This document shows, one piece after another, positions 14,620 to 32,161 of a DNA stretch of 64,000 nt. The stretch's first letter is position 1. Each line of letters begins with the position of its first letter. Under the pieces are notes generated by a model. The model was not told where the DNA came from and made no database searches. It was given only the letters and a program-made list of their open reading frames with translations. The DNA is from Ruficoccus sp. ZRK36. Lineage in GTDB: Bacteria > Verrucomicrobiota > Verrucomicrobiia > Opitutales > Cerasicoccaceae. The stretch lies in contig NZ_CP080649.1 in the NCBI RefSeq assembly GCF_019603315.1, positions 1,813,501-1,877,500 on the forward strand. Direction: 5' to 3'. Position numbers and translations under genes: made by a program.

Positions 14620-15822
14620 ATGATCGATTTCACAAGGCACGAAGACAAACTCATCATGCGCTATCAGCCAGAGCGCAATGAGGCGTGGCTTGTGGAGCCG
14701 TTACAGCGGGACGACGACATCCCGCTTTCGAGCAGGACGTTCTTTGTCCGACAAGAGATTTACCGAGCAGACATAGATGACAGTGATTACGGCATGGATG
14801 CCTGCTATCGATTCATCGTCGGGCAGCTCGAAGGCGAGTATTATCGGATGGATAGGCGTTTTCTGGGCATTGAATACGATCTATTCATGCACCAGTCGCT
14901 TGCCTTCAAACGCACGACGTTTGTGGCTAAGACTAATCTGGCGATTTTCAGGGGCTTTAATAATTACGGCTTTGAAGAGCTTTGGATCGGCGGGGATAGA
15001 CCTGATGCATTGCCCAAGCCAGTCTTTGAGGAAATGCTCGATCAGTTCCCGACGACTTGGGAGCTGAAGAGATACGCCAATGCCAGGGTGAGCAGCATCA
15101 TACGGAACTATGTGCCGCACGAAGTCGATTTTGAGGAGAAGTATCGCTCCTACATGGAGCGAAAACAGTCTCGACAAGGCTTTCAGCCATTGGAGGTCTT
15201 TTCCGATTACGAAGCCGAGAAATACTCCGACCTACTGGAGAAGCTGAAGGACATGCTTGCGCAGGCCGAAGGCTATACCGAAGTGCAATGGCAGGCAGAG
15301 ATCATTCAGATCATTCAGCTACTTTATCCAAAATACGTGCATGCCATTCCCGAAGCTCCCGTTAGAGATAGCCTTGCGGGTAAAAATCGTAAGATTGATT
15401 TCATGCTAGTGGATGCATCCGGCTACGTGGATGCCGTCGAGCTGAAGAAGCCCTTTGCTGAGTGTATCGTTACGAATAACCGTTACCGCGATAATCACGT
15501 TCCCATGCGTGAACTGAATGGCACGGTCATGCAGCTCGAAAAATACCTGTATCATCTGAACCGCTGGGGGCAGCAGGGAGAGAAAAAACTGAATGAACGC
15601 TACGGCGACCAGCTCCCTGATGGTGTAGCCATTAAAGTCGTGAACCCAAGCGGCATGATCATCATGGGGCGCGACAAAGACCTCACAGAGGATCAGCGCA
15701 ACGATTTTGAGGTGATACGAAGGAAGTATCGCCATGTCTTAGAAATTATGACTTACGATGATATGCTAAGACGCCTTGAAGTTATCCGAAACCAATTGAA
15801 GAGAGACGCAGACAATGGCTAA
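14620..15822 (+). CDS. Shedu-like (DUF4263) nuclease-domain protein
   Basis: A 400-residue protein between hsdS and hsdR. The C-terminal half matches the Shedu SduA nuclease domain (DUF4263): WQAEIIQIIQLLYPKYV, then KIDFMLVDASGYVDAVELKK (Asp near 260, Glu and Lys near 273-276), the PD-(D/E)XK pattern, and a closing MTYDDMLRRLEVIRNQLKR. The N-terminal half (1-190) is not recognised and is strand-rich; in Shedu proteins this part varies and controls the nuclease. Shedu is an anti-phage nuclease. Its place within the operon (4 bases after hsdS, overlapping hsdR by 8 bases) suggests coupled expression, perhaps so that methylation protects the host. Confidence 0.85.
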   Translation: MIDFTRHEDKLIMRYQPERNEAWLVEPLQRDDDIPLSSRTFFVRQEIYRADIDDSDYGMDACYRFIVGQLEGEYYRMDRRFLGIEYDLFMHQSLAFKRTTFVAKTNLAIFRGFNNYGFEELWIGGDRPDALPKPVFEEMLDQFPTTWELKRYANARVSSIIRNYVPHEVDFEEKYRSYMERKQSRQGFQPLEVFSDYEAEKYSDLLEKLKDMLAQAEGYTEVQWQAEIIQIIQLLYPKYVHAIPEAPVRDSLAGKNRKIDFMLVDASGYVDAVELKKPFAECIVTNNRYRDNHVPMRELNGTVMQLEKYLYHLNRWGQQGEKKLNERYGDQLPDGVAIKVVNPSGMIIMGRDKDLTEDQRNDFEVIRRKYRHVLEIMTYDDMLRRLEVIRNQLKRDADNG

Positions 15823-18822: not shown

Positions 18823-21060
18823 ATGAAAGACGCACAAAAGCCCGACCATATCAGCCTGAACACGCTCATTTCGCGATTAAAGGAAGGGCGTTTTATGATA
18901 CCCGACTTCCAACGTGAATTCGAGTGGAAGCCATGGGACATTCGTGACCTGATGCGATCAATATTCCTCGATTACTACATCGGGAGCCTGCTTTTGTGGA
19001 AAGGTAAGGATGAGAATTTCGAGGCTTTGAGTTGCGAACCTGTTTACGGCACAGATGGAGCTGGAAATCGCGAGCACATCGTGCTCGATGGTCAGCAGAG
19101 ACTCACCGCGATGAATTATGCGTTCACCGCGCCCAATCAGCCACTTCCATCCAGAAGTAATCCATACTATTACTTCATTCGAGTGGATCGGTTTATGGCT
19201 GAGGAGTATGACCAAGCCTTTGAGTATGACTGGACAAAGCAGCGTCGGAACAAGTTGGAAAACGATCTCGAACACCAATATGCCGAGCACATTTTCCCTC
19301 TCTGGATAATCGGCCAAGGCGGTCGAAAGCTCTACAAGTGGTCAGACGGCTACGCGGACTATTGGAAAAAGAAAACGGAAGAAGCAGCGACCTCAGGCGA
19401 TAGCGCACTTGAAGAAATTGCCCGTAAGCATTCTGAGAATGCATTGATCTTCGATGAGCATATTCAAGGCATCACGGAGCAATACCAAGTTTCATATATC
19501 GAATTGGATCGAGATATTGGTGTGGATAAGGTCTGTGACATATTCACCCAGATCAACAGCAAGGGCGTTCGCCTCGATGTCTTCGACCTTATCAACGCAC
19601 TGCTGAAGCCAAAGGGCTTGCAGCTGAAACACCTATGGCGTGAGGCCAAAAGCCGTTTGGAGTTTGTCGAAAGTGATAAGCTAAACGTCTATATCCTTCA
19701 GGTGATGTCCATTCTGGTGCAGGCGTATTGTTCGCCGAAGTATCTCTACTTCCTTCTTCCAGCACAGGAGAAACCAGTGCGTGATCCTGATGGCACCCGA
19801 CGCAAGGAGGTTCTTATTCCAGATACGAATGCTTTTGAAAGCCGTTGGAACAAGGCTGTCGATGCACTGGAAAATGCAATCAAGATTCTCAGGCATCCGC
19901 AGGAGTATGGTGCGGTATCGTCCAAATATCTGCCATACGTTTCTATTCTCCCTGCTTTCGCGGCAATACGCCAAGCTACGAAGTTGGTTGAACCGAATAA
20001 GCAGATAGATGCTCAGCGAAAAATTCGTCACTGGTATTGGGCTTCTATCTTCAACAGTCGCTATTCAGGCTCCGTTGAATCAACAGCCGCACGTGACTTT
20101 CTGGATATTAGGGAGTGGATCGACGATGACGCAGCGCAGCCGGCATTGATTGCTGAATTCTCTCAGAGATTTCGCAACCTAGATTTTCGTAAGGAAACCA
20201 GCACTCAAAGCTCGGTCTATAAGGGGGTGTTCAACTTGCTTGTGTTGAAAGGTGCCCGTGACTGGATGACCAGCGATGTTCCCCATCACGATGAGTTGGA
20301 CGACCATCACATCGTTCCGGTTTCGCGCGGAAAGGATGATTTGGACCTCAAGGGCGATGCCATTCATACCATCCTTAACAGAACACCGCTCACCGCTGAC
20401 ACCAATCGCAAGGTAATTGGCAACAAGCTTCCCAATGAGTATCTCCCTGAACTGATACAAGAGAACGGATTAGAGCAGGTTCGAGGTATGATGGAATCAC
20501 ACCTCATATCCGCTAAAGCCTTGGATATTTTGCTCAGAGATCCGTTTGCGCCGGATGATTTCGACGAATTCATCAGCGAGCGGCAGCGAAGTATTCAGGA
20601 AGCCATTGAAAATCTTCTGATTAAGGAACGCCTCGACCTCAGCCCTCAGTTGAGAGAGCTGGATGAGGCAGTCGAAACGACCGAACTTGGCTTGAGATAC
20701 TGTGTGCAGGAAATCGTTGCACAGGATGGCAAAGAGTTTCCGCCTCACATTCTGGCCAAGGTTAAGGAGCGCATCCAGAGGGCGGACAAGAAGGATGCAT
20801 CCTTCGATGCAGATTATTATTCAGAGATAAAGGGGCAGCTCGAATACTTCGACCTCAGAGAATTGCAGGACACAATCCTAAACAAAGCTCTATGGCCTGA
20901 CTTTGAACCAAAATTCAAAAACAAAGAGGCTCTGATGACTAAATTCGGGCAGCTCGCCGAGATGCGCAATGGCATTCGCCATAGCAGAAACCTCAGCGAG
21001 ATTACCCGTAAGGAAGGTGAAGCCGCGCTTCTTTGGTTTAAAGAGGTGCTTGGTAATTAA
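18823..21060 (+). CDS. GmrSD-type DUF262/DUF1524 protein
   Basis: A 745-residue protein. The N-terminal DUF262 domain has MIPDFQREFEWKPWDIRDLM and IVLDGQQRLTAM (DGQQR near 90), the ParB-like NTP-binding motif. The DUF1524 HNH-type nuclease has HHDELDDHHIVPVSRG near 490, followed by NRTPLTADTNRKVIGNKLP. About 200 C-terminal residues are helical. GmrSD proteins cut foreign, often modified, phage DNA. It starts 32 bases after hsdR on the same strand, so it probably belongs to the same defence transcription unit, giving modification-dependent restriction beside the type I system. HNH residues are intact. Confidence 0.9.
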   Translation: MKDAQKPDHISLNTLISRLKEGRFMIPDFQREFEWKPWDIRDLMRSIFLDYYIGSLLLWKGKDENFEALSCEPVYGTDGAGNREHIVLDGQQRLTAMNYAFTAPNQPLPSRSNPYYYFIRVDRFMAEEYDQAFEYDWTKQRRNKLENDLEHQYAEHIFPLWIIGQGGRKLYKWSDGYADYWKKKTEEAATSGDSALEEIARKHSENALIFDEHIQGITEQYQVSYIELDRDIGVDKVCDIFTQINSKGVRLDVFDLINALLKPKGLQLKHLWREAKSRLEFVESDKLNVYILQVMSILVQAYCSPKYLYFLLPAQEKPVRDPDGTRRKEVLIPDTNAFESRWNKAVDALENAIKILRHPQEYGAVSSKYLPYVSILPAFAAIRQATKLVEPNKQIDAQRKIRHWYWASIFNSRYSGSVESTAARDFLDIREWIDDDAAQPALIAEFSQRFRNLDFRKETSTQSSVYKGVFNLLVLKGARDWMTSDVPHHDELDDHHIVPVSRGKDDLDLKGDAIHTILNRTPLTADTNRKVIGNKLPNEYLPELIQENGLEQVRGMMESHLISAKALDILLRDPFAPDDFDEFISERQRSIQEAIENLLIKERLDLSPQLRELDEAVETTELGLRYCVQEIVAQDGKEFPPHILAKVKERIQRADKKDASFDADYYSEIKGQLEYFDLRELQDTILNKALWPDFEPKFKNKEALMTKFGQLAEMRNGIRHSRNLSEITRKEGEAALLWFKEVLGN

Positions 21061-21355: not shown

Positions 21356-22873
21356 TCAGGCGGCGTTTGCCGGCAGGAGTCGTTTGCTCTTGGCGATGGC
21401 GGCAGGGGTGTAGGCTTGGATTTGCCAGTTGGTGGCGGCGGGGAGTTCCCTGAGCAGGAGGAGGAGGTACTGGTAGGGGTCGAGTCCGTATCGTTTGGCA
21501 GACTCGATGAGGGTGTAAAGGATGGCAGCGGTTCTTCCTGATGTTTCCGAGCCGATAAAGGTCCAGTTTTTGGCGCCGATCTTGGTGGGGCGGATGGCTC
21601 GCTCGACCTCGTTGTTGTCGATGTCGATGGCCCCGTTTTGGAGGAAGGCTTCCAGTCCGCTCCACTGGCCCAGGGCGTAGTCGATGGCCTTGGCCATGGA
21701 GCACTGGGGGCGGTAGCGCTGGCGCAGGATGGGCAAGGCCCTTTTCAGGCGGGCCACGACGGGGGCCGACTGCGTGGCACGCCGAGCTGACCGCAAGGCG
21801 GGTCCGGCCTTGTCGTCACGCAGGCGTTGCTCAACGCGGTAAAGCTGGGCGATCTGCCCGAGTATCCATCCGGCCACGCTCGGGGCGTGTTCGCGAGCTT
21901 CAAAAAACTTGCGCCGGGTATGGGCCCAGCAACTGGCCAACTGAACCGGTCCCTGTTCCAGCTCCAGGTCCGGTCCGGCGCGTTGTCTGGCCACACTGGG
22001 ATAGGCGGCGTAGCCGTCACACTGGATAATGCCTCGGTAGTGCTCGGGGAGTATCTGCTGGAGGCACTCGGCTGAGCGGCTCGGATGCCAGATGTAAATG
22101 ACGTAGCCGTTGGGCAGGGAGCAGACCCACAGGTAGCCCTTGGCGGTTTGGCCCCGGCCCGGATCAAGGTACGGGATGGGCGTCTCATCGATTTGCAGGT
22201 AGGCGTGGGCCATCTGCTCGCGGGCCATCCACTCGTAGAGCAACTGGCAGGTATCGGCGGCCAGGTCCACCCAGCGACACAGGGTCTGCCGCGAGAGCTC
22301 CACGCCTGCGCGCCGGTAAATCTGCGACTGCCGGTAAAGCGGAAGGTGATCGGCATATTTGCCGATCACCACCTGAGCGATCAGTTCCGGGGTGGCCAGG
22401 CAGCGTTCCTGCATACACGGAGGCAGCGGCGCGATCACCGGCGCGGTAAAGGGAGCGTCCTTGCGGACGTACTTGCGCCGGATCAGGCGGCGACGGTAAA
22501 AGCGCCCCGGCTCGTAATCGAGCTGCTCGCTGACCTCTTCGCCCATCAGCCGCCACTCTTGCGGGCAAGCCAGCACCTCGTCCGGGTCGAGCACGACTTC
22601 CTTCACCGGCAGGTGCTCGGGCACGCGCGGACCGGGGCGGCGGGGCTTGCTCGGAGCCTTTTGGGTGACTCCCGCGGGCGGCTCAACGGCGGCGGGAGCC
22701 TCGTCTATTTTTTCCGCAAGCCCTCCGAGCAGCTCAAGTTGCGCGGGGTCCAGCTTCTCGCTCTTTTTGCCGTAAAGGGCACGCACCAGCGCGTCGATCT
22801 TCTCCCGCAACAACCGGTTTTCCAACTGAGCCGCCTCCAGTTTGGCTTCGAGGGCGGCTTCGCGGTCGGTCAT
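21356..22873 (-). CDS. tnpC: IS66 transposase (TnpC)
   Basis: A 505-residue DDE transposase. The N-terminus has a leucine-zipper-like helix (AALEAKLEAAQLENRLLREK), then the IS66 zinc-binding region (ACPQEWRLMGEE, degenerate) and the catalytic core with Asp in LQIDETPIPYLD, Asp in IIQCDGYAAYP and Glu in NNEVERAIRPTKIG. The C-terminal IS66 segment has FIGSETSGRTAAILYTLIES. All catalytic residues are present, so it is likely active. It is the last gene of the three-gene IS66 operon and ends about 110 bases from the left inverted repeat. Confidence 0.96.
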   Translation of the reverse strand: MTDREAALEAKLEAAQLENRLLREKIDALVRALYGKKSEKLDPAQLELLGGLAEKIDEAPAAVEPPAGVTQKAPSKPRRPGPRVPEHLPVKEVVLDPDEVLACPQEWRLMGEEVSEQLDYEPGRFYRRRLIRRKYVRKDAPFTAPVIAPLPPCMQERCLATPELIAQVVIGKYADHLPLYRQSQIYRRAGVELSRQTLCRWVDLAADTCQLLYEWMAREQMAHAYLQIDETPIPYLDPGRGQTAKGYLWVCSLPNGYVIYIWHPSRSAECLQQILPEHYRGIIQCDGYAAYPSVARQRAGPDLELEQGPVQLASCWAHTRRKFFEAREHAPSVAGWILGQIAQLYRVEQRLRDDKAGPALRSARRATQSAPVVARLKRALPILRQRYRPQCSMAKAIDYALGQWSGLEAFLQNGAIDIDNNEVERAIRPTKIGAKNWTFIGSETSGRTAAILYTLIESAKRYGLDPYQYLLLLLRELPAATNWQIQAYTPAAIAKSKRLLPANAA

Positions 22874-22918
22874 GATGCCATCACTGTATCCATTTTAGCA
22901 TGACAGTAAAGCTCATTA

Positions 22919-23275
22919 TCACGGCTCGCGTTCATACCAGGGTAAAAACTTTGCCCCCTGCATCTGCACCCCGTCGCACAACAGCACAAACGCCTCCGGG
23001 CGCAGCCGCAGCTTCACTGCCGTGGGGTCCGTCGAGACTGGCCAACTGAAGCGACCAACCTCCAACCTTTTGTTCAGGAGCCACAAACCCGTCCCGTCGA
23101 AGTAAAGCGCCTTCAGGCGTGTGCGCCGCTTGTTCGTGAACAAAAACAGCGCTCCCCCGCGCACCGATTCCTTCAGGCGCTGCGTCACCAGCGCTTCCAG
23201 TCCACTAAACCCTTTGCGCATGTCGCAAGGCTCCAGCGCCACGAACACACGCAGACTCCCGCTGAAGCTCAGCAT
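22919..23275 (-). CDS. tnpB: IS66 accessory protein TnpB (Orf2)
   Basis: A 118-residue protein with the family signature VFVALEPCDMRKGFSGLEAL, followed by LFLFTNKRRTRLKALYFDG and LLNKRLEVGRFSWP. TnpB is required with TnpA for efficient IS66 transposition, though its biochemical role is unsettled. The start overlaps the end of tnpA by 7 bases and the gene lies 46 bases before tnpC. Length and motifs are normal for the family. Confidence 0.95.
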   Translation of the reverse strand: MLSFSGSLRVFVALEPCDMRKGFSGLEALVTQRLKESVRGGALFLFTNKRRTRLKALYFDGTGLWLLNKRLEVGRFSWPVSTDPTAVKLRLRPEAFVLLCDGVQMQGAKFLPWYEREP

Positions 23276-23691
23276 GACTCCTCCCGCAAGGCCCGCAGCA
23301 GCGCCACCGCCAGGGCAATATCCTCACGCCGGGCGATATGCACCTTCAGCCCGCCCGGCGTCTCCACCTCGACAGAGCCTCCAGTGCCCGCGCCCCCATC
23401 CAACACCGCCTCAACCAGCGCAATAGGGCCGGTCGTTCCGGTCAGCCCGGCTTCCCCGCTAAGAACACGATGCCGCGCCCGCACCCACCGCCTGAACGTC
23501 CCATCCCTCACCCCCAGACCCTCCGCAAATGCTCGCTCGCTCAGCCCGCTACGCTCGAACGCATCCAAGATCAACTCTCGCTGCCCGGGCGACACCCTCG
23601 ACACCCCAGCCAGCTCCCGCCTCAGCAACTCAAGCTCACTCAAGCCTGCGCTCCCGGCATCACATTCTGGCGGACAAGGCGTAATCTCCAT
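23269..23691 (-). CDS. tnpA: IS66 accessory protein TnpA
   Basis: A 140-residue protein with a helix-turn-helix in the first half (SPGQRELILDAFERSG, then SERAFAEGLGVRDGTFRRWV) as in IS66 TnpA proteins, and a C-terminal VHIARREDIALAVALLRAL, which resembles the tail of this group. It is the first gene of the IS66 operon and begins about 70 bases inside the right inverted repeat. It probably binds the IS ends. Confidence 0.88.
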   Translation of the reverse strand: MEITPCPPECDAGSAGLSELELLRRELAGVSRVSPGQRELILDAFERSGLSERAFAEGLGVRDGTFRRWVRARHRVLSGEAGLTGTTGPIALVEAVLDGGAGTGGSVEVETPGGLKVHIARREDIALAVALLRALREESC

Positions 23692-23773
23692 GCCTACCGA
23701 ATATACGACAACCCCCGCCCCCGCGGGCAGAATAAATCAACGGCACTTGGTATGACGCTTACCATGGGCCTGC

Positions 23774-24691
23774 TCAATGATCAGTGGACGAGCTTATAAA
23801 TTGCCATACGCCCGGATTCTCGAGCAATAGGTCAAATCCAGCATTTTGATGGACAAGGTTCAATAGGGCATGATCCCATTGGACGCCTGGATTTATAGCC
23901 AAGCGTTCCCAGTTAATGCGGTCTGCATAACGCATCACCAGTTGGTGATCCCATGGAACTGCTCGATTTGCAGACAGGGCGTTCCAATTCCAAGCGCCTG
24001 TGAATTTATCCATGATTTCGTTGCTAAAACAGAACCCCTCATTCTGGCTAAGCAAGTTCCAGTGTTCCAGTTGTGCCCATTGCAGAAAATCGTCAAAGTC
24101 CACCGGGTAGGACGCATTTTTCAAGAGGTTGAGACGTTCTTTCGGAGATAAGAACTCCGTTGTAAGTTGCTGCAAGACATGACTGCTCCACGGTAATGCC
24201 GGGTTATCGGCCATCATCAGCCAATTGAGCGACTCTTTTTCGCTGTAGATGAAGTCGATACTCCAAAAGCTTCCTCGGTTCTGGCTGAGCGACCAATAGT
24301 GCACCTGTTTCCGGAACCGCTCAATACGACTGGAACACCAATAAATCGATGCGTTATTGCTGATTGATTTCCAATGTAGGTTATCGCTTTCGTTGCTCAG
24401 GAAATCATCTGTCCATGGAAAGCCAATGTTTTTGGAAAACTCTGCGCGGTGCCACGGGAAGCGGTAGTATTTATCTACGGACCACGGCAGGGATGGGTTT
24501 GAACTGAGATTGTACAGGTCTAGTCGATCCATTCGCGCTGAAATGAAATTCCACGACCACTCAAAGCTCTGATTTAGGCTTAGTAGCCGCCAGTCCAATG
24601 CGTGCTCGATGCGTGGGGTGTCAGAGGGTTTGAAATGCCCATACCTTGATGCCAATTGAGCAACGAGTGTTCGAAATGTTTCAGCGTCCAT
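23774..24691 (-). CDS. tryptophan-rich repeat protein
   Basis: A 305-residue protein built of about ten degenerate repeats of 25-28 residues. The unit reads roughly W-x-x-L-S-x-N-x-x-(L/F)-P-W-(S/D)-x-x-(L/F/I); clear examples are LSSNPSLPWSVDKY, FSKNIGFPWTDDFL, MADNPALPWSSHVL, LSANRAVPWDHQLV and LAINPGVQWDHALL. There is no signal peptide or membrane helix, so it should be a cytoplasmic solenoid-like binding protein. I know similar repeats only as uncharacterised proteins. It is divergent from the small membrane protein and DnaE-like operon. IS66 sits 4 bases beyond its stop codon, so its original 3' surroundings are displaced but the gene is complete. Confidence 0.75.
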   Translation of the reverse strand: MDAETFRTLVAQLASRYGHFKPSDTPRIEHALDWRLLSLNQSFEWSWNFISARMDRLDLYNLSSNPSLPWSVDKYYRFPWHRAEFSKNIGFPWTDDFLSNESDNLHWKSISNNASIYWCSSRIERFRKQVHYWSLSQNRGSFWSIDFIYSEKESLNWLMMADNPALPWSSHVLQQLTTEFLSPKERLNLLKNASYPVDFDDFLQWAQLEHWNLLSQNEGFCFSNEIMDKFTGAWNWNALSANRAVPWDHQLVMRYADRINWERLAINPGVQWDHALLNLVHQNAGFDLLLENPGVWQFISSSTDH

Positions 24692-24783
24692 CGTTCCGGG
24701 AGATGATTTTTGTCATGGAGTGGGTTTTTGACAGTATATCGCCTCCCGCGACACAGTACGTCGCACTCGAGTGTATGATGGGA

Positions 24784-24804
24784 ATGTGATCAAACAGATC
24801 ACAT
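24784..24804 (+). promoter_or_regulatory. 8-bp perfect inverted repeat, candidate operator
   Basis: ATGTGATC and GATCACAT around AAACA. It lies 23 bases before the start of the small membrane protein (24828), between divergent genes. The half-site resembles TGTGA of CRP sites, but the spacing is longer than theirs. Confidence 0.45.
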
Positions 24805-24827
24805 CAATTAACCTATTCATCGATCAC

Positions 24828-25151
24828 ATGGCTAAACTCATACTCGAACACCCTGCGACAGGGATTATCAAAAACGCGCCTGTCGGCTTCTCTTGGACGA
24901 CACTTTTCTTTCCTGCCTTACCCGCTTTATTTCGTGGGGACATAAAGGGATTTATCATCCAAGTTTTTCTGGATTGTTTGCTTTTGGGGATTCCTGTCGT
25001 CGTCTTCCCCTTTATCTACAACAAGCAGTTTTTGATGCGTCTTTTGCGTGAGGGCTATAAAGTGGTTGAGGCCAAAGGAGGCAATTTGGAGTCAGCAAGC
25101 CACAAGCTGAAAATCAAACTGCCAACATTGGAGCATTCGGCCTCTGTCTAA
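24828..25151 (+). CDS. small membrane protein, HrgC-like
   Basis: A 107-residue protein. Residues 18-30 (PVGFSWTTLFFPA) followed by LPALFRGDIKGFIIQVFLD and a second hydrophobic helix (LLLGIPVVVFPFIYN) match a family of two-helix membrane proteins sometimes labelled HrgC, with the conserved PxGFSWT and PALFRGD motifs. The C-terminal 40 residues are charged and cytoplasmic. An upstream ATG (24771) would add 19 residues that cover an operator-like inverted repeat, so Met at 24828 is preferred. The DnaE-like gene starts 3 bases after the stop, so the two are co-translated, which suggests a membrane-tethered partner. Confidence 0.7.
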   Translation: MAKLILEHPATGIIKNAPVGFSWTTLFFPALPALFRGDIKGFIIQVFLDCLLLGIPVVVFPFIYNKQFLMRLLREGYKVVEAKGGNLESASHKLKIKLPTLEHSASV

Positions 25152-25154
25152 CAC

Positions 25155-26642
25155 ATGGAGAACGCTTTCCGCTGGATAATCTCCCTCGGAACGTCTGATT
25201 CCAGTTCTATTCGCCCACCACTATCAGTAACGATGGATTTAAATAAAAACAGGCTCTACGTTTACGGACAACTCCCGAGACGCCAAAAGGAAATGGATCT
25301 TCAAGGGCTCTGTAAGCTTGGTTTGCACGAGTGCTACGGCGTCGATTATGATGAGATACGCATTGGCCAGTCAACCGACGGGGGACTGGGTTGCTGTTCA
25401 AAGCCTAGTCTTCGCTCATTCCAGCTTTGTGAACGAATGGATTACGAGTTGAGTCAGATCAAGGAAGCTGGGCTTGAGGGTGATTTTCTCCTTGCATGGG
25501 ACATTGTTAATTGGGCTCGTGAGCAAGGCATCGCAGTCAGTCCAGGAGCCCGAGCTGCCCCGAGCTCTCTGGTCTCTTATTTGCTACGGATTACCGATGT
25601 GTGCCCCATCCGCTTCGGTTTGCTATTTGAACGCCTGCTAACCGACAAGCCGACGTTTTTCGTGGAGCTGTGCATGCACAGAGGAAAAGAGGTTCTTGAC
25701 TATGCGAAATCTAAGTATGGTCAGCGTTGCACCATCCGTCAGGAATCGGCGACTCCCTCGGAGATTCATGAGATGAGGGGAGTTGAGTATCTAAAGCCGT
25801 GTACGCTGGTTATATCAGATGTGCTGACCGATCATGAAGCTCCGTCGCCTAAAGGTTCCGTGAAGAGTGATTTACCCCGCGTTGCCCCAGGAGCTGAATA
25901 TGGCAAATCCTTGGAAATAGGCATGCGAGGGCTGAATGCACTAACGGTGATTCAAGATGCGGTGAGACGCATTCGTAGGCGGGCGGCATACCGGCGCTTT
26001 GATATAGAGCGTATCTCGCTTGATGACCCGGCGACGTTCAAATACATTTGCGACAATAGTACGACGGCCATCTTCCAGTTGGGTGTTGGTGGAATGGATG
26101 AACACTGTCGAGAATGCAGAGTGCACTCTGTAGAGGATATTGCTGCCCTGATTGCGATGTGCGGTGTGTTTGCGGGGAAATTTATCCCTCAGTATCTTGG
26201 GGGAAGAAAGCGCGCTGAAAGAATTCGAGCAGAGCATCCTCTCTTGGCGGATATGTGTAAAGAAACGTCCGGTATACTGCTCTACCAGGAGCAATTGATG
26301 CTGGCCCTTCAGGCTATTGCTGGTTTCAGCCTGATTGAAGCAAACACGCTCCGTATCGATTTTGGAAAGAAGACCAAGTCGACCATGGAAGTGCACCGGG
26401 AAGCGTTTATCAAAGGTGCACAAAGGGTAAAATATCTCCCAAAACAGGAAGCCCATGAGTTGTTCGGTCTCTTGTATGAATCTGTGGTGTACACCTCTAG
26501 TAAGTCGCACGCCCTTGCTTATGCGGTGACGAGTTATCGCACCGCATACTTGAAGGCACACTTTTACAGCGAGTACATGTGGGCAATCGTTAACTCGGCA
26601 TCTGGGATGGCCTTTGTGCAGGAGGAATCGTCCGTGCGATGA
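25155..26642 (+). CDS. truncated DnaE-like protein lacking catalytic aspartates
   Basis: A 495-residue homologue of the polymerase and fingers part of DNA polymerase III alpha. Residues 92-160 (CERMDYELSQIKEAG, DFLLAWDIVNWAREQG, FGLLFER) and 371-480 (GILLYQEQLMLALQAIAG, SKSHALAYAVTSYRTAYLKA) match closely. The catalytic PDxDxD motif has become PTFFVEL (166-172), so the Asp pair is Thr167 and Phe169, and the third Asp (usual VKFDFLGL) is replaced in LEIGMRGLNAL (Gly256). GPGRGS is SPGARA. The PHP domain, beta-binding and OB parts are absent; the first 85 residues are unrelated. It cannot be a normal polymerase. Retained fingers motifs suggest selection, perhaps for binding DNA, nucleotides or replisome parts. 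It is coupled to a membrane protein gene. Confidence 0.85.
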   Translation: MENAFRWIISLGTSDSSSIRPPLSVTMDLNKNRLYVYGQLPRRQKEMDLQGLCKLGLHECYGVDYDEIRIGQSTDGGLGCCSKPSLRSFQLCERMDYELSQIKEAGLEGDFLLAWDIVNWAREQGIAVSPGARAAPSSLVSYLLRITDVCPIRFGLLFERLLTDKPTFFVELCMHRGKEVLDYAKSKYGQRCTIRQESATPSEIHEMRGVEYLKPCTLVISDVLTDHEAPSPKGSVKSDLPRVAPGAEYGKSLEIGMRGLNALTVIQDAVRRIRRRAAYRRFDIERISLDDPATFKYICDNSTTAIFQLGVGGMDEHCRECRVHSVEDIAALIAMCGVFAGKFIPQYLGGRKRAERIRAEHPLLADMCKETSGILLYQEQLMLALQAIAGFSLIEANTLRIDFGKKTKSTMEVHREAFIKGAQRVKYLPKQEAHELFGLLYESVVYTSSKSHALAYAVTSYRTAYLKAHFYSEYMWAIVNSASGMAFVQEESSVR

Positions 26643-26717
26643 CGGGGCTGTGTGCTGGATGTTGTTCGGTTTTCGTTCTCTCCGTGGCTTTTGTAAATAA
26701 AACTTGATAACGTTAGC

Positions 26718-26766
26718 AGTTGCGACATGAAATGACGCATTAATGGGTACCATTTGAGCCGCAACT
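26718..26766 (+). promoter_or_regulatory. nested palindromes before the WYL regulator
   Basis: Outer arms AGTTGCG (26718-26724) and CGCAACT (26760-26766) enclose a second inverted repeat AATGG-GTA-CCATT (26742-26754) and the 9-mer ATGACGCAT (26732-26740), which also occurs at 31004-31012. The start codon is at 26768. A candidate autoregulatory site for the WYL protein. Confidence 0.45.
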
Positions 26767-26767
26767 T

Positions 26768-27766
26768 ATGGCAAAATCGCATAATTATTTAGCTGTCGAA
26801 CGTCAGTGGACTCTGCTTCGCCTTATCCCGGAGCATCCCCCTGGTGTCACCACAAGTCAGCTTTTTGAGCGATTAAAGGAAGATGGACACTCGGTTGCCA
26901 AGCGTACGGTTGAGCGGGATCTTGAGCAGCTGTCCCGGCAGTTTGGTATCGCCTGTAATGACGTTAGCAAGCCGTACGGTTGGTATTGGCTGAAGGGCAA
27001 AAAAGACCTGCTCGAATCGCTGGAGATCAAGGAGGCTGTGTCGTTGGCGATGGCTGAGAATATCCTGAGCCAACTACTTCCCCTGCCAATGCAAGAAGAG
27101 CTGGCTACGATCTTTGCGGATGCGCGTAAAAAACTGAGCGCATTGTCTGGGCATCCATTGGTGCGTCTTCAGGATAAGGTCCGCTATGTTGCTCCAAGCT
27201 TACATTTTGAGAGACCTTACATTCGCAACGGCATCCTCAAGGTCCTGAAGGAGGCCTTGATGGAGGATCGACAGATCACCTCGCAGTACGCTCCATTTGA
27301 TCAAAAGGATAGGGAACTGCGTCTGCATCCGCTGGGGCTCGTCCAGCGAGGGCCGGTTCTGTACCTGGTGGCAAGGGCTTTTGACTATGACGATGTACGC
27401 TTTTATGCCGTTCATCGCTTCAGCAAAGTCGAGCTGCTTTCAGAAAAAGCCACGGCTCCAGCTGGTTTCTCCATCGATGAACTGGTTGAGCAAAACGCCT
27501 TTGATTTCGGATCGGGCGAGATGATTACTGTTAAGGCCCGGCTCAACAACACGCTCGCCATGTACTTGGCTGAGACACCGCTAGAGCCCAAGCAAAAACT
27601 CTCGCCTCAAAACGGACACTACATGCTCACAGCTCGCGTTCGCGACAGTTGGCAACTGTATTTCTGGATACTTTCACAGGGCGATCAGATCGAAGTTCTC
27701 GCGCCAAAATTACTGAGAAATGCGATTGCTGATACGGTGAAGGAAATTTACAAATTATATCATTAG
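26768..27766 (+). CDS. WYL-domain transcriptional regulator (YafY type)
   Basis: A 332-residue protein. The N-terminal winged helix (residues 8-62, RQWTLLRLIPEHPPGVTT, then VAKRTVERDLEQLSRQFG) is followed by a WYL domain (about 145-225: ITSQYAPFDQKDRELRLHPL, GPVLYLVARAFDYDDVRFYA, VHRFSKVEL) and a C-terminal WCX-like extension ending with WILSQGDQIEVLAP. WYL domains bind nucleic acid or nucleotide ligands, and such regulators commonly control phage defence genes. The gene sits between the DnaE-like gene and the second GmrSD-type gene on the same strand and is preceded by nested palindromes, which suggests it controls itself and its neighbours. Confidence 0.92.
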   Translation: MAKSHNYLAVERQWTLLRLIPEHPPGVTTSQLFERLKEDGHSVAKRTVERDLEQLSRQFGIACNDVSKPYGWYWLKGKKDLLESLEIKEAVSLAMAENILSQLLPLPMQEELATIFADARKKLSALSGHPLVRLQDKVRYVAPSLHFERPYIRNGILKVLKEALMEDRQITSQYAPFDQKDRELRLHPLGLVQRGPVLYLVARAFDYDDVRFYAVHRFSKVELLSEKATAPAGFSIDELVEQNAFDFGSGEMITVKARLNNTLAMYLAETPLEPKQKLSPQNGHYMLTARVRDSWQLYFWILSQGDQIEVLAPKLLRNAIADTVKEIYKLYH

Positions 27767-27880
27767 GCAGGTCACTGGTTCAGCCTCCAGAAAACAAATG
27801 CCATCCACGCTTTACCTTCGTTACTTGAATTCAATTACCAATGGCAGCAATGGCTGTCGCATATAATCAGTACATATTCT

Positions 27881-30133
27881 ATGAACATTTGGAGATTGTC
27901 ATCAAGCTGGAGCCAAGATGGGAATTATGACTCCACTATCCTTGATATTTTTTGGAAACATGGAGTCGTTTTTATCCGCGATGACGGAAAGCCCTTACAT
28001 TCCGTTAACCATGCCGATAATGATGAGGAAGGAGACCTTATCGCCGTAACCGATGGTGATCGCATCGTGGGTTTAGCAAAGCCCCTAACTGCCGTTTTAG
28101 ACTTCACTGAGCTGAAGATGGGGCTGAGAAAGTCGGATGCACAAAGACTGTCTGATGCCGAGGCCGACATCCGGGGATTTCGAGTGCGCTTCCTCAATGT
28201 ATCTGATCTGGATGATCTTGGGGATCAAGAACCGAGTCGCTTTTGCCGTATTAATGACGAAACACTCAAAACTCGACTCAAAGAGATTTGGACGTCGAAG
28301 AATTGTGAAGACGCCAGCAAAGCTTTCAAAATTGAGGCATCAACCAAGACCTTGGATAAACTGATTCGCGAAAAGGGTGACCAGGATGTGACCCTCTACC
28401 AAGTTCCCGTATACCAGCGCCCATATGCCTGGGGAGAGGATCAAATACAGCGTTTTCTTGGTGACATTATCCGAGGCATAAACAAGGGCGAAGACATGTT
28501 TATCGGAACCATACAGCTTTCGGCGAAACGTTTGTTGGATCCAAGAGGCGAATACTACCAGGAAGTCATTGATGGACAGCAAAGACTGACTACCTGCGCT
28601 CTGATTTTGAAAGCTCTTGAGCTCCTCAGTCCTGATGAGTCTTTTTCGGCTTTCACGAAACAGTTCACTTGGATCGAGACACGAGTCAGCAACGGCCTAA
28701 TGCAGAAGTATCTCGATCAAACCCTGTTTGAAAACGCGTTGGAAGATAGTTCGGAGCTGAATATCTATGCGACCAACCTCAAGCTTATCAAAAAAATACT
28801 CGAAGAATGGATGAGCAAAGACGGGGAAGAAAATTCATGGCAATACAACCCGCTTGAGCTCTTTGAATACCTCACAAAGAAGCTTCATTTCGTTGTCATC
28901 CAAACCGAGGCCGGGCTTTCCAAAACACTCCAGATTTTTAATACCATCAACACTGCAGGTCTAGATCTCAACGGAGGCGACCTGTTCAAGGTTAGAGCAT
29001 ACGAATACTTCAAGGACTATCATCAATTCGACTGTTTCGATGACATCAGCGAACTGTATGAAAAGATTGACCGTATAAACTCAAACAAAAGACGTTCAGT
29101 TTGCTCGATTCAAGAGGTTCTCAATATATACCAGACTATCATCGTGGGCAAGACATACGACCCCACTCCAGATAAACAGTCAGGACTCCCCATTTCCACG
29201 ATCCGTTTTGCTCCAGAAACGTTCTTCGAGCGTCTTTTTGATACCCGTTTCGGCATTCAACGTTGGGAAAACTTTACCAGCGTCACCAAACTCGACCTAG
29301 CAAGTCGCATCATCGACCTGAATGAACTTCAATGGATTGTCGAAGAATGCAACCGACTCGATAGTAAATGGTATAGTAACAATCTGTATACTGAGACTTT
29401 TTTGGCGTTCAATCTGATCTATAATAGTCGATATTCGGAGTATATACATCTCTGGCACGTCTTCAGGTTTGCCTACAAAGACCATGAAAACAGGCAAAAG
29501 CTTTCGACGGAATACATGAAGGCCTTGGCTCGCCTATTTACGATCTACAGTATCATCTATGCCAAAAAGGTGAACGAGATGCATACCTATATTGGAAATC
29601 TGGTTCGTGAGATGTTCAACGAGTCGGCAGAAAATATCATCGATAAGCTAAATGAAAAAATTGAAACAAAAAGAGACCATTTCTACTCAGAACTCGATTC
29701 GCAGTTCGCATGGTATCCGACCCCAAAGAACCTGCTCTGCCGGCTTTTGGAATGGTTGGCCAGAGAGCCCGCCCAAAGAGACCCTAGTGAAACTCGCATG
29801 ATCTTTGAGGGATCATACGACATTGAGCACATTCAGTCTTTAAACGACATTAAACAAGAGGAGCGAGAGGCAATCTCAAAGGAATGGGGTGATAAGATCA
29901 ACGGGCTTGGCAACCTGATGTTGCTCGAATACGACATCAACCGCTCCATCGGTAATAAGACCTTTGATTTAAAAATCCTTCGCTATGGCGGCGACGAAGA
30001 GGATTGCAGTAAGCTAACAGTCCCCAACTCCATTTCCAAAGACTATCAAGGAAACAAAATCTGGAAAATGGAATTTGGAGAGAAGAAGCTTCAGAACGAT
30101 AAAGAACAGCTGATGCGCTTCATCTTCGGATAG
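27881..30133 (+). CDS. second GmrSD-type DUF262/DUF1524 protein
   Basis: A 750-residue protein. The first 140 residues (with TSKNCEDASKAFKIEAST) are an extra N-terminal region. DUF262 follows with YQVPVYQRPYAWGEDQIQRF and EVIDGQQRLTTC (DGQQR near 230), then FNTINTAGLDLNGGDLFKVR. The C-terminal DUF1524 has YDIEHIQSLND near 645 and GNLMLLEYDINRSIGNKTF, the HNH-like nuclease pattern where His of EHI is the catalytic candidate. It is only distantly similar to the 18823-21060 protein, so the two were acquired separately. The family restricts phage DNA. It begins 114 bases after the WYL gene on the same strand. Confidence 0.9.
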   Translation: MNIWRLSSSWSQDGNYDSTILDIFWKHGVVFIRDDGKPLHSVNHADNDEEGDLIAVTDGDRIVGLAKPLTAVLDFTELKMGLRKSDAQRLSDAEADIRGFRVRFLNVSDLDDLGDQEPSRFCRINDETLKTRLKEIWTSKNCEDASKAFKIEASTKTLDKLIREKGDQDVTLYQVPVYQRPYAWGEDQIQRFLGDIIRGINKGEDMFIGTIQLSAKRLLDPRGEYYQEVIDGQQRLTTCALILKALELLSPDESFSAFTKQFTWIETRVSNGLMQKYLDQTLFENALEDSSELNIYATNLKLIKKILEEWMSKDGEENSWQYNPLELFEYLTKKLHFVVIQTEAGLSKTLQIFNTINTAGLDLNGGDLFKVRAYEYFKDYHQFDCFDDISELYEKIDRINSNKRRSVCSIQEVLNIYQTIIVGKTYDPTPDKQSGLPISTIRFAPETFFERLFDTRFGIQRWENFTSVTKLDLASRIIDLNELQWIVEECNRLDSKWYSNNLYTETFLAFNLIYNSRYSEYIHLWHVFRFAYKDHENRQKLSTEYMKALARLFTIYSIIYAKKVNEMHTYIGNLVREMFNESAENIIDKLNEKIETKRDHFYSELDSQFAWYPTPKNLLCRLLEWLAREPAQRDPSETRMIFEGSYDIEHIQSLNDIKQEEREAISKEWGDKINGLGNLMLLEYDINRSIGNKTFDLKILRYGGDEEDCSKLTVPNSISKDYQGNKIWKMEFGEKKLQNDKEQLMRFIFG

Positions 30134-30202
30134 ACTGATGACCTGGCCGTGTCCTCTAGAACTGGACCGCTTGCAAAGTTAGTCTGAGTGCTTAGAAAGG
30201 AC

Positions 30203-30454
30203 TCAGAAGATGAAAGGCAAGCCGTCCTCTACAGACTGATGCTGATACTTCTTCAGCAGTGACTCGAAGTGGGCGTGGCGGTACTCCTCCGAAGGGGAGT
30301 CTGTCGGGGTGTACTCCAGCCACTCGGCAATATCTTCTCCATTCAAGTCCTCGTCCTTGAGGAATTTCGTGAGGGTGCGTGGTGGCCGCAGTAAACGTAC
30401 GGCCCATGGTTTTAGGCAACTTGTGAGGTCAAACGTTTCCATATGTGCTTTCAA
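30203..30454 (-). CDS. small unknown protein next to exonuclease
   Basis: An 83-residue acidic protein that I do not recognise. It is mainly helical (TLTKFLKDEDLNGEDIAEWL, SEEYRHAHFESLLKKYQHQ) with no signal peptide. Its start overlaps the end of the exonuclease gene by 26 bases; Met5 at 30442 also overlaps. The coupling suggests a partner protein of the exonuclease. Confidence 0.5.
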   Translation of the reverse strand: MKAHMETFDLTSCLKPWAVRLLRPPRTLTKFLKDEDLNGEDIAEWLEYTPTDSPSEEYRHAHFESLLKKYQHQSVEDGLPFIF

Positions 30455-30947
30455 TGGCTGTTAAAGAAGCTGGTACTTGGTTTATGCAGCACCTCAGGTA
30501 GAGTGTTGCACAGGCCATTGCATCGGAAAGGGCGTCGTGGTGATTCAGGGGGATGCCAAGCTCCTGGCAAAGGGGCCCGAGGCCTTTTCCGTAAATCCGA
30601 TACGTGCAGTGCCCCGAAAAAGTCGGCATTTCCATCCCGTAATGAGAGAGGGTTTGCTCCAGGCAGCCGAAGTCGAACGAGCTGTTATGGGCGACGACAG
30701 TTTGGCCTTCGATATACGGGTGTATCTGGGGCCAGACTTGATCGAAGGTTGGAGAGTTTTGAGTATCCCACCTGTGAATGCCGTGTATTTTAGAGAAAGA
30801 GCGCCAGTAGTAATTGTCTGGCGGCTGTACAAGCAGGCTCAGTTTATCTACGACCGTACCGTCAACTACACGCACAAGCCCAACTTGGCAAATGCTCCAA
30901 CGGTAGCCCTGCGCGGTTTCGAAATCGAGTGCAGTGAATGTTTCCAT
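30429..30947 (-). CDS. DnaQ-like DEDDh 3'-5' exonuclease
   Basis: A 172-residue protein made of a single exonuclease domain. It has Exo I ALDFET (Asp8, Glu10), Exo II NSSFDFGCLEQTL with the third Asp, and Exo III HHDALSDAMACATLY with His and the fourth Asp, so all DEDDh residues are present. Stand-alone proteins of this size resemble the epsilon subunit of polymerase III or RNase T type enzymes. It is likely active on single-stranded DNA or RNA. It faces away from the Rhs fragment, with a 7-bp inverted repeat (30993-31011) in the divergent region. Confidence 0.92.
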   Translation of the reverse strand: METFTALDFETAQGYRWSICQVGLVRVVDGTVVDKLSLLVQPPDNYYWRSFSKIHGIHRWDTQNSPTFDQVWPQIHPYIEGQTVVAHNSSFDFGCLEQTLSHYGMEMPTFSGHCTYRIYGKGLGPLCQELGIPLNHHDALSDAMACATLYLRCCINQVPASLTAIESTYGNV

Positions 30948-30973
30948 ATATGGAATTCTTTTGTGTGTGACTT

Positions 30974-32161
30974 GTGCAGTATAGGGCTTTTGTGCGTCAG
31001 AATATGACGCATGGAGCAGATTATCTCGCTGTGGCAGAGGAGACCGGTTCGGTTTACCTGGCCCCGAACCCAGAGAATTTTGTTTACGACGCGGACGGCA
31101 ATCTTAAGCTGGATGGACGTTGGTCCTACTCCTGGGACGCCGAAAACCGCCTCATCGCCATGCAACCAACCACGGATGCCCTTGCCGCCGGTGTACCCAA
31201 CCGGAAATTGGAATTTTCGTATGATGCGCAAGGCCGCCGCTATAAAAAGACGGTTTTGGACTGGAGCGACGCCAGCTCGGCCTATGTTGTCTCCTCGGCC
31301 ACACTATATCTCTACGACGGCTGGAACGTGATCGCTGAGCGCTCGGCCACGGACAAGTATTACCTGTGGGGGCTAGACCTGAGCGGCTCGCTCCAAGGAG
31401 CAGGCGGCGTTGGCGGGCTGCTGGAGGTCTCCGTGACAGATGAAACCGCCGGAACGCACACTTATGCCCCCGCTTACGACGGTAATGGCAATGTCATGGC
31501 CTATGTGGACGCCTCCAGTGGCGAAGTCGCTGCGCAGTTCGAGTATGGCCCCTTCGGTGAGCCCCTGCGTGCGACCGGTAGCGCTGCCGACGAGCTCACC
31601 TACCGCTTCTCCACTAAATACACCGACCCCGAGTCCGGTCTCCTCTACTACGGCTATCGCTACTACTCTCCCGGAATAGGGCGTTGGCCATCTAGAGACC
31701 CAATCGGTGAGGACGGTGGAGTTAACCTTTACGGAATGGTCAATAATGACCCGATTAATTACTGGGATGTGCTGGGTCGTTGGCCAAATTTTCTTTCATG
31801 CTTTGGGGTTACTGGAGATGCAAGTGAGTATCCTGATCCGAGGGAAACCTGCCTGACAAGCAACCGAGAGGGTTTTTACAGGCATTGCGTTAACACTTGT
31901 TTGCTGAGTAGATGCTTATCGACGATTAATCCAGTATTGGGACCAATTATAGCAGAGCAAGTCGCTCTTGAGGCAGGAGGCGATCGTGGCACAGGCAACT
32001 CCGATACAGAAGCAAATGAACATGGAGTCGGAAACACGTATGGGGTCGGAACATGTGAGAGTATGTGCCTGAATGACTTCAATTCATACGTAGCTGAAAA
32101 TTGCTGTAGCACTGACGAGATGCTAGATAAGTCTGATTCGTCTTGTTGTGATGAAGAATAA
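30974..32161 (+). CDS. Rhs-family C-terminal fragment with cysteine-rich tip
   Basis: A 395-residue frame that carries only the end of an Rhs/YD-repeat protein: FVYDADGNLKLDGRWSYSW, AENRLIAMQ, FEYGPFGEPLRATG, then the core terminus YYGYRYYSPGIGRWPSRDPI and GGVNLYGMVNNDPINYWD. After this hallmark comes a 140-residue variable tip rich in cysteine with no recognised toxin motif. The large N-terminal shell is missing and the first 25 residues are not Rhs-like, so this is a displaced C-terminal module, not a full toxin. The next gene overlaps by 14 bases and is the likely immunity gene. Whether it is expressed is uncertain. Confidence 0.75.
   Translation: MQYRAFVRQNMTHGADYLAVAEETGSVYLAPNPENFVYDADGNLKLDGRWSYSWDAENRLIAMQPTTDALAAGVPNRKLEFSYDAQGRRYKKTVLDWSDASSAYVVSSATLYLYDGWNVIAERSATDKYYLWGLDLSGSLQGAGGVGGLLEVSVTDETAGTHTYAPAYDGNGNVMAYVDASSGEVAAQFEYGPFGEPLRATGSAADELTYRFSTKYTDPESGLLYYGYRYYSPGIGRWPSRDPIGEDGGVNLYGMVNNDPINYWDVLGRWPNFLSCFGVTGDASEYPDPRETCLTSNREGFYRHCVNTCLLSRCLSTINPVLGPIIAEQVALEAGGDRGTGNSDTEANEHGVGNTYGVGTCESMCLNDFNSYVAENCCSTDEMLDKSDSSCCDEE
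30993..31011. promoter_or_regulatory. inverted repeat TGCGTCA-gaata-TGACGCA
   Basis: Perfect 7-bp arms, 46 bases before the start of the exonuclease gene. The 9-mer ATGACGCAT at its right arm is also present before the WYL regulator (26732-26740), so both promoters may share a regulator. Confidence 0.4.

Follow-up and report, generated by a model that had tools for sequence, protein, structure and literature searches.

The closest described relatives of the gene treated here are the C-family replicative polymerases, and above all DnaE1, the alpha subunit of DNA polymerase III, with which it shares homologous palm-1 and fingers regions. The gene lies at 25155-26642 (+) in a stretch of 64,000 nucleotides from Ruficoccus sp. 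ZRK36 (assembly GCF_019603315.1, contig NZ_CP080649.1, positions 1,813,501 to 1,877,500 of the forward strand), which we call the window and whose numbering we use for its features. Its product, which we name mini-DnaE, groups with the DnaE1 proteins of its own order and differs from them in having about 500 amino acids instead of about 1200 and in lacking the PHP, thumb, HhH, OB and tail parts as well as the catalytic aspartates D401, D403 and D555 (Escherichia coli numbering). In the portion of the survey literature covered here, the aspartates of the C family are called absolutely conserved and sequence fragments whose active site is not intact were set aside (PMC3919608), so genes of the mini-DnaE kind fall out of view. 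A 2026 survey, as far as covered, divides the C family into four groups and reports PHP domains in them that are inactive (PMC12926913).

Polymerase homologues kept without activity have been described in other polymerase families, namely ImuB and other dead Y-family polymerases and noncanonical PolX proteins without polymerase activity (PMC9226535); the covered parts of this literature report no relation of either to GmrSD. The second comparison is with the DUF262 type IV restriction proteins GmrSD, BrxU and SspE (PMC10952713, PMC4619093). According to the covered part of one of these papers, GmrSD-type proteins are nucleases driven by nucleoside triphosphates (NTPs) (PMC10952713). A gene downstream of mini-DnaE shares their GmrSD_N and GmrSD_C domains and the IDGQQR motif, and its locus differs from those described, in the parts covered, by having a dead DnaE as neighbour and proposed partner. 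A literature search, with subscription papers and preprints mostly outside its scope, returned no paper naming both GmrSD and DnaE and none devoted by its title to inactive or truncated DnaE.

The window gene compared with an active DnaE

The open reading frame starts with ATG and runs over 495 codons with no internal stop. It matches the Pfam families DNA_pol3_finger (120.9 bits) and DNA_pol3_alpha (81.5 bits), with no match to PHP, HHH or OB at E <= 0.1, and a phmmer search of Protein Data Bank (PDB) chains returned DnaE chains only (best E 6.5e-58). Alignment with the DnaE of E. coli and the DnaE1 of the order places T167, F169 and G256 at D401, D403 and D555. The PDxDxD motif has become PTFFVE (codons 166-171, 25650-25667 (+)), with Glu at D405, and Gly stands at the place of D555 (codon 256, 25920-25922 (+)). 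The aspartates that characterise active C-family polymerases are absent, as are the PHP, thumb and HhH parts of an active DnaE; the homologous palm and fingers are present, both in Pfam searches and in model superposition. The fingers motifs YQEQ, SKSHALAYA and TAYLKAH were all found, including QEQ at codons 378-380 (26286-26294 (+); E. coli 687-689) and KSH at codons 450-452 (26502-26510 (+)), whose H452 corresponds to E. coli H760. The intact frame, the fingers motifs, the loss of the three aspartates and the absence of PHP and OB had all been proposed by eye in a first-pass annotation of the sequence, and our searches bear them out. To these we add the missing thumb and the presence of a normal dnaE elsewhere in the genome (G000:C1:3.48 Mb), a frame of 1260 amino acids that mini-DnaE matches in two segments, with 41% and 43% identity.

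The aligned ranges, E. coli residues 246-424 and 496-808, can be set against the domain limits given in the covered part of a cryo-electron microscopy paper (PHP 1-280, palm-fingers 281-432 and 510-810, thumb 433-509; PMC4703070). They indicate that the palm-fingers body was retained and that PHP, thumb, fingers tip and tail were lost. No aligned run corresponds to the thumb (433-509); its place is taken by a linker of low confidence (codons 191-250, 25725-25904 (+)), in which just 23 isolated columns align; the end of the palm and the fingers follow at codons 251-486 (25905-26612 (+)). AlphaFold2 predicts a fold with a mean predicted local distance difference test score (pLDDT) of 77.8 and a predicted template modelling score of 0.79, residues 1-45 and 197-250 falling below a pLDDT of 50. 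Foldseek matched this model to 19 PDB entries at E <= 0.001, all of them DnaE or PolC chains. Superposition on E. coli DnaE, which the first-pass annotation had suggested as a check, aligns 398 residues of the predicted structure with residues 279-810 of 2hnh (Z 34.5, root-mean-square deviation 3.3), and the model of a second mini-DnaE, from genome G036, aligns with residues 272-781 (Z 27.7, 361 residues). Both models lean towards the DnaE fold because they were built from alignments of full-length viral DnaEs.

A recurrent shortened form

Four further mini-DnaEs were found, which brings the number to five. Finger-domain searches of three overlapping sets, namely 71 relatives, 111 genomes of the phylum and a further 121 genomes of the class of G191, recovered mini-DnaEs in the window genome and G036, in the window genome and G191, and in G191, respectively; no additional one was recognised in the last set. 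The G036 protein (461 amino acids) has an FtsK_gamma N-terminus (42.0 bits) and IPTFHIS in place of PDxDxD, and G191 encodes two proteins, of 399 and 396 amino acids. A plasmid search with the G036 protein yielded one of 480 amino acids on Butyrivibrio proteoclasticus pCY186, annotated as hypothetical and carrying PSYCIR at the motif; it was the one mini-DnaE in single-protein searches of phages and plasmids, which mostly returned ordinary DnaE. Other frames of about 480-1000 amino acids (for example in G016, G024, G042, G527, G543, G547 and G544) were covered in part, and short frames in G072, G156 and G093 were rejected as contig edges. Plasmid pCY186 also carries a second DnaE-derived protein (L049:9601-10599 (+), 332 amino acids), which is limited to palm-1 (DNA_pol3_alpha, 47 bits). 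Several phage loci (L074, L076, L081, L086 and L104) have a DnaE split into two frames about 1.7-2.8 kb apart.

All five proteins consist of palm and fingers alone. In E. coli numbering each is interrupted at residue 421-425 and ends at 776-808, and D401 and D403 are missing throughout. We define the mini-DnaE class by these features (with an end before residue 811). Three of the five have lost D555 as well. None of the five matched a PADLOC defence family. Since the window frame is open and similarity ends at identical domain borders in five genes, we rejected the simple reading of the window gene as a frameshifted or decayed full-length dnaE.

The five proteins also agree in the residues that they keep and lose. 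Of the 60 positions that are near-invariant across 59 rows of active DnaE, ten are retained by all five, QEQ being common to all, where 1.3 were expected and none of 20,000 permutations reached ten; eleven, with D401 and D403 among them, have been lost from every one of the five, against 2.1 expected (P 5e-5). A comparison of the first three mini-DnaEs with 49 reference DnaEs showed the three aspartates lost in 9/9 cells, an outcome shared by 220 of the 35,990 possible triples of comparable sites; L031, which has one stop, was excluded from every row set. Other DnaEs nearly always keep them: across 160 viral loci, with 69 partial frames set aside, 125 of the 126 DnaE frames spanning palm and fingers have D401, D403 and D555, the exception being the G036 mini-DnaE. 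So do 59 of the 62 other rows in the alignment that includes all five mini-DnaEs. The three exceptions there are full-length paralogues of family f44 (L148:5664-9014 (-), L149:3518-6886 (+) and L150:1795-5217 (-)) which retain PHP, thumb and HHH, have PELSLD or PELGLD instead of PDxDxD and read E-S-D (twice) or E-G-E (once) at the three sites; they are a second, different kind of DnaE that is probably dead.

Trees suggest that the form arose more than once. The window protein groups within the DnaE1 clade of its own order, the Butyrivibrio protein with the DnaE of Clostridia, and the two G191 proteins are sisters (support 100/99). Approximately unbiased tests (p-AU) rejected monophyly of all five (0.009), of the first three (0.018) and of the window protein with the G191 pair (0.032), which argues for at least two origins; with branches this long, their exact number is unsure and the placement of the G036 protein is not fixed. 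The G191 pair, 40% identical over 352 codons, diverged under purifying selection: the three codon positions differ by 0.455, 0.381 and 0.534, respectively, and amino acid changes are much milder than under neutrality (BLOSUM -0.36 against -0.88, standard deviation 0.11). Both members carry T[FV]PLET instead of PDxDxD, so their ancestor was probably already dead.

GmrSD neighbours and candidate roles

A GmrSD gene is next or next but one downstream of mini-DnaE at three of the five loci, that of the window and both in G191. The window cassette runs on the plus strand from a small hydrophobic protein through mini-DnaE and a WYL regulator to GmrSD, with gaps of 3, 125 and 114 bases. Pfam identifies WYL and WCX in the regulator (26768-27766 (+)), and GmrSD_N (104 bits) and GmrSD_C (43.1 bits) in the last gene (27881-30133 (+)), which has IDGQQR at 231, matching the (I/V)DGQQR pattern of GmrSD-type proteins. 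At the first G191 locus, mini-DnaE is followed by GmrSD (gap 137) and a second GmrSD_N gene (gap 17), at the other by GmrSD (gap 54). In whole genomes (E <= 1e-5), GmrSD_N genes number two in that of the window, both flanking the mini-DnaE locus (the second, found by profile search, at 18823-21060 (+)), and five in G191, three of them behind mini-DnaEs. The G191 pattern has a chance probability of about 5e-6, with gene numbers guessed as genome length divided by 1.1 kb.

The mini-DnaE class itself is well supported. The presence of three of five copies near anti-phage nuclease genes, together with the recurrent form, suggests a working part of defence and not junk. A polymerase body unable to synthesise can only bind, and we infer a binding partner, a contact with GmrSD and a defence activity as follows. 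Mini-DnaE would be a non-enzymatic mimic of DnaE, a palm-fingers body without PHP, thumb, HhH, clamp-binding part, tail and metal-binding aspartates, of a class that would have more than one origin and be maintained by selection. With a GmrSD/DUF262 nuclease it forms a cassette at the loci of the window and G191. It may bind a usual partner of the replicative polymerase, be it a replication factor of a phage or plasmid or the end of a primer-template, and pass the binding event to the GmrSD effector. Tentatively, we favour the reading in which this mimic does the sensing or targeting for a defence cassette of GmrSD type. Slightly more doubtful is its general form, in which the dead, thumb-less class evolved several times and supplies GmrSD-type defence with its recognition subunit, a replicative polymerase turned immune sensor or decoy. 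A decoy or sensor role for the window gene had been raised in the first-pass annotation and is possible.

Several observations weigh against this proposal. There is no GmrSD near the G036 and Butyrivibrio mini-DnaEs (two of five loci), and none in the G036 genome at E <= 1e-5. GmrSD genes cluster in defence islands anyway, and the chance figures are too small if something else brings mini-DnaEs into such islands. At D555 the alignment gives the G191 pair an Asp, and long branches weaken the tree tests. For the window gene itself the evidence of selection is moderate: no orthologue was found that would allow a ratio of nonsynonymous to synonymous rates; the type of its replacements is not clearly unlike neutral (20 of 300 simulations); and its codon usage gives a weak signal, which one antisense frame exceeds.

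A rather unlikely alternative, though the strongest of the others, is that mini-DnaE acts alone as a replication decoy, jamming or competing with the polymerase of a phage or plasmid, or regulating the replication of its own mobile element, with no part for GmrSD. This would fit the plasmid copy in Butyrivibrio, which has dnaX on one side and the genes of an AAA-M41 protein, DnaA/Hda and PolC on the other, and the G036 copy, which lies at the end of a predicted provirus contig of 75 kb. According to the covered parts of two papers, moreover, the fingers of E. coli DnaE contact tau through residues 657-667, inside the retained body (PMC4703070), and point mutants of DnaE1 are dominant negative (PMC12641269). 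Yet a protein missing the clamp-binding and tail parts would have poor access to the replisome, and at three of the five loci mini-DnaE is part of a GmrSD cassette.

It is improbable that the window gene is a degenerate remnant of an extra dnaE, acquired by a mobile island, shortened and now drifting. The first-pass annotation would have seen such a remnant in the lack of a similar pair in other genomes. The exact gene is indeed absent from the other nine of ten genomes of its family; no orthologue outranked the native DnaE in 177 genomes of the order or 387 of the phylum, and peptide patterns found no close relative in genome or viral contigs. The long branch, the weak codon signal and the change of 57 of the 143 positions invariant in 30 DnaE1 rows of the order also agree with decay. 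Against it stand the four further dead mini-DnaEs of like architecture, the identical borders and shared pattern of kept and lost residues in five genes that arose at least twice, and the purifying selection in the G191 pair. Moreover, the window gene has no frameshift and no stop, where simulated neutral decay to its loss of conserved sites (375 codons, linker left out) predicts 6.4 stops and left none in just one of 300 simulations.

Finally, a nucleotide sensor, with fingers binding normal or modified deoxynucleoside triphosphates (dNTPs) to switch an NTP-dependent GmrSD, is very improbable: the GmrSD relative BrxU is promoted by NTPs and dNTPs in the covered part of its description (PMC10952713), H760 is retained in four of five mini-DnaEs and R709 and K714 in those of the window, G036 and Butyrivibrio, but the latter two are not among the sites retained by four or five, and the window gene has lost both metal sites (D401 and D403) and, in part, the palm loop that holds the nucleotide (G359, R362 and S364), which makes a protein or a primer-template end the likelier ligand.

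Other genes at the loci, and implications

The first-pass annotation had coupled mini-DnaE to the small protein upstream (24771-25151 (+), 126 amino acids), whose TAA does lie 3 bases before the mini-DnaE start. We rejected the two as a unit: a search of 88 genomes gave a homologue of the small protein in one other, G011, whose single finger-domain gene is a frame of 1259 amino acids, not a mini-DnaE; the recurrent neighbour is GmrSD. The small protein matches phrog_4915, a family of unknown function, and its description as a two-helix membrane protein holds in part: one hydrophobic stretch is clear (windows that start at residues 58-70), and the second, just before it, is weaker. The other neighbours had been recognised correctly. 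They include the WYL and GmrSD genes and a divergent tryptophan-repeat protein (23774-24691 (-), 305 amino acids, 20 Trp) without a Pfam family. A protein with 31 Trp at the G036 locus was considered as its counterpart and rejected as a common partner on a BLAST E of 0.27.

The predicted defence island is also present, with a type I restriction-modification system, a Shedu-type gene and two GmrSD-type genes. The Shedu gene (SduA_C, 120.2 bits; 14620-15822 (+)) lies between hsdS and hsdR of the type I system, and a DnaQ-like exonuclease gene (RNase_T, 59.5 bits; 30429-30947 (-)) is near mini-DnaE. Beside the defence genes are three genes (21356-23691 (-)) resembling what we take to be an IS66-type element. 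A promoter and terminator scan of 23600-31000 gave fewer sites than shuffled sequences and no terminator-like site on the plus strand between the mini-DnaE and GmrSD genes; we place no weight on it.

At the G036 locus we found HsdR (42% identical to that of the window), Fic and a metallo-hydrolase, and WYL recurs at the Butyrivibrio locus. The metallo-hydrolases of these two loci (L035:8796-10070 and L049:2924-4111) are 28% identical over 417 amino acids (E 2e-31). LRR_5 genes lie upstream of both G191 mini-DnaEs and may be a local gene family, because another follows in L146.

That one shortened form originated repeatedly, with like residues lost and kept each time, suggests that the DnaE palm-fingers body serves a function other than synthesis. 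If GmrSD is its partner, mini-DnaE illustrates a way in which type IV restriction might detect replication.
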